From positions 434,001 through 498,000 of the forward strand of contig NZ_QWGA01000003.1 of NCBI RefSeq assembly GCF_003576245.1: 64,000 nt of DNA, in the 5' to 3' direction. How positions within the stretch are numbered: the first letter of the stretch is position 1; each line of letters opens with the position of its first letter. Positions 32,003-48,039 of this stretch are shown one piece after another. The notes under the pieces were generated by a model that did not search any database, was not told the origin of the DNA, and saw only the letters and a list, made by a program, of their open reading frames with translations. This DNA comes from Henriciella algicola. Its GTDB lineage: Bacteria > Pseudomonadota > Alphaproteobacteria > Caulobacterales > Hyphomonadaceae. Position numbers and translations under genes: made by a program.

Positions 32003-33739
32003 ATGAAGCGTGTTCTGATCTGGGGCTTCTTTTTCATTTTGGCAGGTCTGGCGGGCGCCATTGGCTGGTTCGTTATCCAGCCAAAGACCACCATGCATCA
32101 CCCCGATTTCGGCAATGATTGCACCGAGCTCGTCGACGAGGCGACCGAGAACGCCGTCGACTGCGTTCGCGTCTTCTTCGGCACCAATCGCAAAGTCGTG
32201 ACCGATGGCACGGCCCCGGGCGAGGATGACGAAGTTGATACGAAGGATGTCGTCGCAGAGGACAGCGAAACCCTGGCGCTAGGCCGGGCTGATATCTGGC
32301 TTCCGAAGCTGATCGAGGAAGGTGGCTCACGTGAGCGCGGCGAGACGCCTTTCCTGAAAGGCGAGCCCCCTGAAGAGCCGAGCGAACTGGCGAAATACGC
32401 CCTCATCACCCGCATCACGGCGGCCGGTCAGGAACGCTTTCTGAGCCAGCTCGATGACGCGCTGATCGATCGCGATTCCTACTCGCTTCTCCTCTTCGTG
32501 CATGGCTTCAACACACCGTTTGAGGATGCATTGATCCGGTCTGCCCAGCTCTCGACCGACTTGTCACGCCGCGATGTCTTCGATGTCGGTGTGCCGGTGC
32601 TGTTCAGCTGGCCATCTGCGGGCAATGTCTCGCTTGACGATTATCAGGGCGACCGCGACCGGTCTCTCGCCTCAGCGGCCTATCTTGAGCAATTTCTCGA
32701 GCTGCTGACCGCCAATGCCGATGTCGACCGGATCAACATCGTCGCCCATTCCATGGGCAACCGGGTGCTGACGCAGGCACTTGAAGATTTCGCGGCCGAT
32801 TATCTCGAAACCCATGGCGAGAGCGGCATCGAATTCCGGATCATCCTGGTTGCCGCCGATGTGGACCGCGAGATCTTCGACGCAACGGCTGGCATCATCG
32901 ACAATATGCGCGCCAACATCACGATCTATACATCTGACGCGGACAAGGCGCTGCAGGTCTCAAACATCGTGAACCAGAAGATGCGCCTCGGCGATACAGA
33001 CACCAACCGGCCCTATATTCGCGAAAACGAGTCGTATCAGACAGTGGATGCGACGGGCGTCGCGACCGAGCTGTTCGGCCTTGGCCACAACTATTATTCC
33101 GACAATCCCTTCATCCTTGGCGACATGCTGTGCGCCATGGCGCAAGCCAACCCCGAAGCGCGCGCGCTGGAGCGGCTTCGCTATGCAGGCACGCCTGATG
33201 GCCTCGAATATTTCCGGGTGCGCCCGGATATCGAGCCCGGCTATGAAGAATGCTCGCTGTACCGCGATGCTTTCCCGCTAACGGATATATCACAAGCGCC
33301 TGAAGCCGACGTTCCGCAGCCAATGGCGCCGCCGCCGCCTCCACCTGCTTCGACCGATACCGATAGTATGCCAGAGCCAGGCGCGCGCAGCGTTGAACCC
33401 GGCGCGCCAGAGGACGAGACCATCACCTATCTGGTCGAGGATCGCGCAAGCTTCCGTCCCGTCGACTTTTCTGGTGAGCTGATGCTGGCGCTGGCCCGCG
33501 GTGAACCGATCGAAGTCCGCGTTGACACTTACACCGATACACTTCTCGCAGAGGATGACAGCCGTGCGATGACAGCACTCTGGGCCGCAGAGGTGGTTGA
33601 GTTGCTGGTTCTGCTCGATGTCGACCCGTCCATCATCACCGTGACAGCACATGGCGAGGATGACCTTGCCGTTGTGACTGAAGACGGCGTTGACGAGGTT
33701 CAGAACCGGCGTGTCGTGGTGACCGTGGTGTATGAATAG
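32003..33739 (+). CDS. DUF900-type alpha/beta hydrolase with OmpA-like C-terminal domain
   Basis: 578 residues from an ATG after GGGGGACG. One N-terminal membrane anchor (about 5-25) is followed by VRVFFGTNRKV, the DUF900 entry motif. The hydrolase core (about 150-350) has LLFVHGFNTPFEDAL and the nucleophile elbow IVAHSMGNRVL. A Pro-rich linker (about 440-470) leads to a C-terminal domain that looks OmpA-like: VDTYTD near its start and a late TEDGVDEVQNRRVVVTV. The arginine normally used to hold diaminopimelate seems replaced by Trp in MTALWAAEVV. This predicts an inner-membrane-anchored periplasmic hydrolase that may contact peptidoglycan. Confidence 0.85.
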   Translation: MKRVLIWGFFFILAGLAGAIGWFVIQPKTTMHHPDFGNDCTELVDEATENAVDCVRVFFGTNRKVVTDGTAPGEDDEVDTKDVVAEDSETLALGRADIWLPKLIEEGGSRERGETPFLKGEPPEEPSELAKYALITRITAAGQERFLSQLDDALIDRDSYSLLLFVHGFNTPFEDALIRSAQLSTDLSRRDVFDVGVPVLFSWPSAGNVSLDDYQGDRDRSLASAAYLEQFLELLTANADVDRINIVAHSMGNRVLTQALEDFAADYLETHGESGIEFRIILVAADVDREIFDATAGIIDNMRANITIYTSDADKALQVSNIVNQKMRLGDTDTNRPYIRENESYQTVDATGVATELFGLGHNYYSDNPFILGDMLCAMAQANPEARALERLRYAGTPDGLEYFRVRPDIEPGYEECSLYRDAFPLTDISQAPEADVPQPMAPPPPPPASTDTDSMPEPGARSVEPGAPEDETITYLVEDRASFRPVDFSGELMLALARGEPIEVRVDTYTDTLLAEDDSRAMTALWAAEVVELLVLLDVDPSIITVTAHGEDDLAVVTEDGVDEVQNRRVVVTVVYE

Positions 33740-33757
33740 GGGCGGGCCTGTTCAAAA

Positions 33758-33880
33758 GAGCCCCCTTCGACCCGCATTCGCGGGCCACTTCCCCCGCAAG
33801 CGGGGGAAGAAGGACCACCATCGGCGTGATGCCTTCCTCCCCCGTTTACGGGGGAGGTGCCCGGCAGGGCGGAGGGGGCC
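33758..33880 (+). repeat. 123-bp structured intergenic repeat, copy A
   Basis: It begins GAGCCCCCTTCGACCCGCAT and ends GGGCGGAGGGGGCC. Short terminal inverted ends (GCCCCC/GGGGGC) enclose hairpins CCCGC/GCGGG, CTTCCCCCGC/GCGGGGGAAG and CCTCCCCCGT/ACGGGGGAGG, then GCCC/GGGC. The 25-30 bp between the second and third hairpins differ between copies. Copies B (41177-41298) and C (47876-47998) have the same orientation. It lies between the hydrolase and ttcA genes. Confidence 0.9.
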
Positions 33881-33943
33881 TTTCGCCCACAACATGAAAG
33901 CTTTCCTTCCCCATCACACCTTCGCCATGGCATAGACGCCCTC

Positions 33944-41068: not shown

Positions 41069-41137
41069 GGCGGCTGCTGACGCGGTCGGGCGTGACGCAG
41101 ATCTTTGAGACGATTCCGGAATATCCGGCGCGCCCAC

Positions 41138-41163
41138 GTCCTTCGACTTCGCTCAGGATGAGG
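41138..41163. repeat. Short dispersed palindrome, copy 2
   Basis: GTCCTTCGACTTCGCTCAGG followed by ATGAGG. It shares TCCTTCG and GCTCAGGATGAGG with 36030-36057 and lies 14 bp before repeat copy B. Confidence 0.65.
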
Positions 41164-41176
41164 GCGGAGGCGAGAA

Positions 41177-41298
41177 GAGCCCCCATCGACCCGCATTCGC
41201 GGGCCACTTCCCCCGCGGGCGGGGGAATAAGAAACCAACTTTGCGTACCGCCATCCTCCCCCGTTCACGGGGGAGGTGCCCGGCAGGGCGGAGGGGGC
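41177..41298 (+). repeat. Structured intergenic repeat, copy B
   Basis: It begins GAGCCCCCATCGACCCGCAT. It matches copy A except for the centre (AATAAGAAACCAACTTTGCG in place of copy A's sequence) and a few loop bases. Hairpin 2 reads CCCCCGCGGGCGGGGG. Its end directly abuts the stop codon of the methyltransferase on the opposite strand. Confidence 0.9.
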
Positions 41299-41940
41299 TT
41301 ACGCTTGTCGCTTCTGGGCGACGTAGAAGTTTGCGGACATGCTGCTGTCGGTGCGCAGGCTTTCGGTGAGGTCGAAGCCGTTGCGGTCCAGCATGGAAAG
41401 GATGTCGTCTTCTGAAAGGAAGCTGACAGTGGGTGCCTTGCCGACCGCCTGCATGACAGGAATGGCGAGCCGCAGGATGAAGGACGCGTCTTTCAGACAG
41501 GCGGTGCTCTGGATGAAATGGCCGCCCGGTTTCAGGAGGGCGCGGACTTTTCTCGTGACGGCGTCCGGGTCGCGGCAGAGGTGAAGAATATTGAGGCCGA
41601 GAACGACGTCGAAGCTGTGGCCAGCCGGGTCAAACTCCTCAATGCCGATACGCTGGAAATCGACATTCTGGATGTCGGCTTCCGCTGCCCTGACCCGCCC
41701 GACATCGAGCATATTCTCTGCCAGGTCGGTGGCGAGAATATAGTCGACATGCGGGGCATGCAGGAGCGCCGTTGAACCTGTCCCGCAACCGAACTCAAAG
41801 ATACTGCTCTGCGGCGTCAGATATTTGCGGGTAATGGCGAGCTTCTTTTCATAGGTCTCCTGATCGGAGATGGGCTGGCGCGCATATTTTGACGCAAGCC
41901 TGTCCCAGAAGCGCTGATCGCTCTTCGATGCTGTTCTCAT
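41299..41940 (-). CDS. Class I SAM-dependent methyltransferase
   Basis: 213 residues from the ATG at 41940; an upstream start at 41973 overlaps the dehydrogenase gene and lacks a better ribosome-binding site. Motif I FEFGCGTGSTALLHA, then ILATDLAENML (ribose-binding acidic residue), FDVVLGLNILHL and LLKPGGHFIQST. The N-terminal WDRLASKYARQPISD suggests the UbiE/COQ5-like or lipid-modifying branch. Substrate unknown. It follows the FMN dehydrogenase gene on the same strand (29-bp gap). Confidence 0.88.
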   Translation of the reverse strand: MRTASKSDQRFWDRLASKYARQPISDQETYEKKLAITRKYLTPQSSIFEFGCGTGSTALLHAPHVDYILATDLAENMLDVGRVRAAEADIQNVDFQRIGIEEFDPAGHSFDVVLGLNILHLCRDPDAVTRKVRALLKPGGHFIQSTACLKDASFILRLAIPVMQAVGKAPTVSFLSEDDILSMLDRNGFDLTESLRTDSSMSANFYVAQKRQA

Positions 41941-47875: not shown

Positions 47876-47998
47876 GAGCCCCCTTCGACCCGCATTCGCT
47901 GGCCACTTCCCCTGCGTGCGGGGGAAGAAGGACTTACTCTGATGGTGTGCCATCCTCCCCCGTTTACGGGGGAGGTGCCCGGCAGGGCGGAGGGGGCG
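47876..47998 (+). repeat. Structured intergenic repeat, copy C
   Basis: It begins GAGCCCCCTTCGACCCGCAT and ends GGGCGGAGGGGGCG. Compared with A and B, the first hairpin has CGCTGG for CGCGGG, and the second has CCCCTGC, where the changed base still pairs as G-T. It lies upstream of mutL and just downstream of the M16 operon terminator. Confidence 0.9.
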
Positions 47999-48009
47999 CG
48001 TGGATACAA

Positions 48010-48039
48010 AAAAGGGCGGCCCGTTGGGGCCGCCCTTTT
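48010..48039 (-). terminator. Terminator of the M16 operon
   Basis: AAAAGGGCGGCC (48010-48021) pairs with GGCCGCCCTTTT (48028-48039). On the minus strand the hairpin is followed by TTTTTTG. It sits 24 bp after the second M16 gene. Confidence 0.92.

Follow-up and report, generated by a model that had tools for sequence, protein, structure and literature searches.

What is the GC-rich, hairpin-forming sequence that recurs in this stretch of the Henriciella algicola genome, and by what route could it have spread? The window, that is, the whole 64,000-nucleotide stretch analysed (G000:C5:434001-498000, G000 being the 3.20 Mb genome that contains it), had been predicted from its letters to hold three near-identical repeats with conserved hairpins around a variable centre, all on one strand within 14 kb and each next to a gene end.

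Architecture of the 120-bp element

The three copies exist (Table 1), each exactly 120 bp long (GCCCCC...GGGGGC) and 1-2 bp off the coordinates first proposed, and a 30-nt end motif has three matches in the window compared to none in 100 shuffles. Their hairpins are real as well: on both strands, the copies fold far better than shuffled sequences (z -3.8 to -7.7; no shuffle equal). Strong difference between the window copies is confined, as had been noted, to the ~27-bp centre. Strand-specific G-U pairing was considered and dropped, as neither strand folds consistently better.

Table 1. Repeat copies, their parts and neighbouring palindromes, in window positions.
Feature	Position	Strand	Remarks
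Copy 1, full element	33760..33879	+	left unit, inverted-orientation spacer, right unit
Copy 1, left unit	33760..33809	+	tip hairpin CCCGC-ATTC-GCGGG; stem CTTCCCCCGC-AA-GCGGGGGAAG
Copy 1, spacer (27 bp)	33810..33836	.	inverted type relative to copy 3
Copy 1, right unit	33837..33879	+	stem CTCCCCCGT-TT-ACGGGGGAG; tip GCCC-GGCA-GGGC
Copy 2, full element	41179..41298	+	missing at the orthologous site of G016
Copy 2, spacer	41229..41255	.	nearest to inverted-type spacers of other copies
Copy 3, full element	47878..47997	+	same place occupied in G016
Copy 3, spacer	47928..47954	.	forward (consensus) type
Different palindromic repeat, CGTCCTTCGACTTCGCTCAGGATGAGGGCGG / GTCCTTCGACAGGCTCAGGATGAG type	41137..41167	+	adjoins copy 2; G016 has this repeat but not copy 2
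Terminator-like hairpin of the peptidase gene	48008..48039	-	GGGCGGCCC-CAAC-GGGCCGCCC-TTTTTT; read by eye, unflagged in the terminator scan

The left arm of the element consists, in order, of GCCCCCTTCG, a tip hairpin and ACTTCCCCCG-loop-CGGGGGAAG; the right arm, read as its reverse complement, consists of GCCCCCTCCG, a tip hairpin and CACCTCCCCCG-loop-CGGGGGAG. In copy 1, the reverse complement of the right unit is homologous to the left unit. Both arms are variants of a single unit, which makes the element an inverted dimer: a pair of ~45-nt GC-rich two-hairpin units around a ~27-bp spacer. Asymmetric differences between left and right are kept across genera, including Marinicaulis and Aquisalinus.

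Covariation among 36 aligned elements, a check that the original prediction had called for, identifies which structure is conserved. Both stem hairpins are paired in more than 98% of cells, the loop-closing pair toggles between C-G and T-A (p=0.007 and 0.0007), and tip stems have been wholly re-paired (CCCGC/GCGGG, CCTGC/GCAGG, CTCGC/GCGAG, TCAGC/GCTGA, CCCTC/GAGGG). Overall, the local structure shows 14 both-side changes compared to 2.5 in shuffles, a value reached by 0 of 500, although these shuffle counts serve as a guide rather than as probabilities because the aligned elements are related. Minimum-energy folding favours a long arm-to-arm hairpin; compensatory support for it is lacking (4 both-side cells versus 5.4 in shuffles), and both-side variation is found at its outermost end pair only. 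Since the local hairpins covary and the long stem does not, the conserved object is each local hairpin.

The centre is less free than its variability had suggested. Where the spacer is clear, it mostly agrees with a consensus, GGACTAACGCTGATGGTGTGCC, read forwards; the spacers of copy 1, of the copy at C1:559538 and of two copies in relatives fit this consensus solely as the reverse complement (0 of 300 shuffles each way, p below 0.005). The copy 2 spacer aligns with the inverted type, and the remaining spacers are too diverged for their orientation to be called. The variable centre is thus not arbitrary but one diverged spacer occurring in two orientations, which recombination between inverted arms or template switching would explain. 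At C5:277380, where the spacer is forward in G000 and G002 but inverted in G016, the case for an inversion in place was too weak to be retained (p 0.017).

Next to copy 2 lies a palindrome of a different type (Table 1). Elsewhere (L025, L036, L059), palindromes of the GTCCTTCGACAGGCTCAGGATGAG type interrupt the 120-bp element itself, sitting in the loop of a tip or stem hairpin, which gives the impression that other palindromes insert into hairpin loops.

Distribution and polymorphism of the family

BLAST and covariance-model searches identified at least 14 full 120-bp copies in G000, on both strands, as well as solo arms, related tail-to-tail pairs and one 70-bp copy that lacks the spacer. 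The shared strand of the three copies therefore holds inside the window but is a local chance. Their proximity likewise amounts to a mild cluster (3 of 14 copies within 14 kb, p ~0.02) in a window picked post hoc. Within the genus, the BLAST query matches 14 of 29 genomes, the other 15 having no match at the threshold used. Across the order, the covariance model places the element in at least 77 of 249 genomes and at least 29 of the 48 genera sampled, both counts being lower bounds because 14 candidates were scored per genome. The same architecture is found in Henriciella pelagia, H. marina, H. aquimarina, Marinicaulis and Aquisalinus. No Rfam family was matched at its gathering score (the region's best hit reached 26.8 bits, against a cut-off of 90), and the 120-bp family is undescribed in Rfam and in the open-access literature searched, where absence is no proof of novelty.

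Comparison of orthologous sites revealed the sites without element that the original prediction had proposed to look for. G016 has copy 3, but at the copy 2 site it shows 20 bp where G000 has 141. Elements or pairs at C5:277380, C2:351047, C2:79267, C8:90150, C5:800465, C5:853530 and C5:786738 are missing in G016 and/or G005; the vacant sites comprise single elements and three related pairs. Because the relatives examined are only ~90-95% identical, none of them offers a base-exact empty site, and insertion can thus not be told from loss everywhere. At C2:351047, G016 has ~1.6 kb of other sequence instead of the element (L135, G016 C1:1916700-1919400).

Resident copies also differ in their internal arrangement. 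In G005, one pair has collapsed by an internal deletion that joined the two arms at a common GCAGGCGG. The arms at the copy 1 site are combined differently in each of G000, G005 and G016 (left-right, right-left and right-right). This site (window 33740-33900) is also a rearrangement point: between the upstream gene and ttcA, G016 carries ~1.5 kb with two extra genes that is missing from G000, and G005 has the same gene beside ttcA. A simple flip of the whole element was rejected here, as a single flip is not enough to yield three arm combinations and a G000 without the two upstream genes. With respect to replication, for which a look at orientation had also been suggested, a bias hinted at by contig strands was dropped: once dnaA was placed (785 kb, G016), orientations were mixed, with no strand bias, in a test that also drew on noisy GC skew.

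Copies beside and within genes

By heuristic gene calls, the predicted adjacency to gene ends holds for all three window copies. Copy 1 starts 20 bp past a stop codon, in the interval that separates ttcA from a gene whose end is at 33739. Copy 2 directly adjoins the stop codon (41299-41301) of a methyltransferase gene, and copy 3 has mutL on one side and an M16-like peptidase gene on the other, the end of the latter being 65 bp away. By gene calls of the same kind, a stop codon lies no more than 65 bp from 10 of the 17 intergenic sites, and no site separates two divergent genes.

Other copies lie within coding sequence. The gene glyS, whose product is an enzyme of protein synthesis and which is expected to be essential, holds, in G000, one 120-bp copy in frame, which adds 49 residues relative to G005 and G016. 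In a solved structure of the GlyRS beta chain (7yse), the blocks on either side of this insert are contiguous, meeting at residues 423/424. A related tail-to-tail dimer is in frame in the ligase-associated DEXH helicase gene of G000 and G016 and absent from that of G005, and another is in frame in dnaE2 of G000, where G005 has a different repeat insert and G016 none. Because Di Nocera et al. 2013 (PMC3733652) describe other bacteria with REP insertions in dnaE2 and in genes for tRNA synthetases, as well as RPEs inserted in frame in Rickettsia, this is a known behaviour that recurs here. An enrichment of open frames, considered as a sign of coding selection, was unconvincing (3.7 open frames versus 3.4 in shuffles).

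Tail-to-tail dimers of the ~45-nt unit form a second family with a centre of its own, about GATACTCCAGACGCAGCGTATGCTGCC (L033, L034, L036). Two of its copies sit inside repair or replication genes.

Could the element act as RNA, as the original prediction had also entertained, its hairpins in 3' UTRs terminating transcription or protecting mRNA 3' ends? The preference for sites just past stop codons, the lack of sites between divergent genes and the covariation of the local hairpins all fit such a role. However, plain terminators were rejected when none of the three window copies scored in the terminator scan; none has a U-tract, and copy 3 is not the terminator of the peptidase gene because another, terminator-like hairpin of that gene lies next to this copy (Table 1). 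Copies point either way relative to the neighbouring gene, in-frame copies occur in glyS, the helicase gene and dnaE2, and element sites differ among species, all of which makes an RNA function unlikely as the main one.

The suggestion of a mobile, MITE-like unit fares better in part: the elements are dispersed and numerous, some orthologous sites are without them, and their hairpins covary. Neither of the outcomes that the original prediction had named as refuting it occurred, since further copies exist in the genome and both covariation and vacant sites were found. A classical MITE, moved by a DDE transposase through GCCCCC terminal inverted repeats, would also suit the inverted ends, the ~120-bp length and the polymorphism, yet it is highly improbable. 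Target-site duplications are no commoner in the flanks than in permuted flanks (1 observed versus 1.07 expected), solo arms and reversed pairings occur, and no copy with separated arms was seen among the element matches in G000 and 28 genus genomes. Selection might instead have kept the element as a DNA-binding scaffold, with gyrase or IHF sites for example. This would rest on analogy with the BIMEs of E. coli, which bind proteins (PMC2817692) and which the inverted pairs with conserved hairpins resemble. We consider it quite improbable given that sites vary between close species and that just over half of the genus genomes gave no match at the threshold used.

Relationship to known palindrome families and possible movers

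We assign a probability of roughly three in four to the reading that these elements are a non-autonomous, interspersed family of REP/BIME/REPIN/RPE-class palindromes within the order containing Henriciella. REP-like repeats are common, and the assignment to the REP class is well supported; the mover we infer. The 14 full copies are few for a REP family, which counts against this reading, as does the failure to find a mobilising enzyme or a target-site duplication.

Like REPINs and BIMEs (Bertels and Rainey 2011, PMC3116915), the element joins two inverted palindromic units by a variable spacer, is mostly extragenic and polymorphic, and has hairpins predicted in single-stranded DNA or RNA. Unlike REPINs, it has no RAYT beside it or in G000, each of its units has two hairpins, and covariation backs separate hairpins rather than an arm-to-arm one. 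With the CGTC-tagged REPs (Di Nocera et al. 2013, PMC3733652), it shares an alphaproteobacterial host, mostly paired units and positions downstream of genes; those REPs, too, are without a dedicated transposase (PMC3733652). The element here differs in its longer, asymmetric unit, its 120-bp dimer and the want of a tag, with an unpaired GTAG or CGTC end tag found in 0 of 40 elements. The RPEs of Rickettsia are, by description, comparable palindromes of about 100-150 bp, some of them in frame within genes for functional proteins, whereas the present element is GC-rich, mainly intergenic and in a free-living host. Caulobacter intergenic repeats (CIRs; Chen and Shapiro 2003, in PMC2229807) are similar (about 110 bp, two inverted-repeat arms and a linker, intergenic, Alphaproteobacteria), but they have a GANTC methylation site, which 39 of 40 elements here do not have; CIR membership was rejected on this site. 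The family works like REPIN/BIME and RPE, yet, of the tagged or RAYT-linked families tested, each has a defining feature that it lacks.

A search for a mobilising enzyme found no PF01797 (Y1/RAYT) gene in G000, and only three of 29 genus members have one. Y1 genes are present in nine of 24 element-rich genomes, and in 12 genomes other than G000 the element is absent from the surroundings of all 16 Y1 loci. With no RAYT in G000 and no element beside Y1 loci, a RAYT-flanked REPIN system is unsupported.

For a REP-class family of this kind, new copies may arise from single-stranded hairpin intermediates at replication forks or during repair, copied by an activity acting in trans that would be other than an element-flanked RAYT and has possibly since been lost. 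We know of no mover for alphaproteobacterial REP-like repeats. Template switching or recombination of inverted arms would then alter resident copies through spacer inversion, arm exchange and slippage deletion. Copies would persist mainly as nearly neutral DNA, tolerated best just past stop codons, with an occasional copy read through as a protein insert.

A more far-reaching view is tentative: an order-wide palindrome might have spread with neither a RAYT nor a duplication-making transposase while possessing an invertible spacer and supplying repeated peptide inserts to core proteins. Its hairpins might, for example, be copied by the replication or repair machinery itself or by a novel single-strand transposase. 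The family offers a compact, polymorphic test case, with close culturable relatives, occupied and vacant sites and an in-frame insertion in glyS, which is expected to be essential, and it could reveal how transposase-less palindromes spread and add protein segments.

Three elements of the 120-bp family directly follow another dispersed, non-coding repeat of ~445 bp (L023:1014-1460; G000 C5, about 827.7-828.1 kb), which is also found at L026, L029, L145, L161, L163, L106 and L053. No tRNA and no credible Rfam match were detected in it, and part of it reads N in two copies. Its ~90-nt core (TGACAGGGCCGGGCGCGTCCAGGG...GCGCCATGGACGCGCCC) is nearly invariant, and its central module comes in two alternative forms; it may be either a structured RNA or a mobile repeat of composite make-up.
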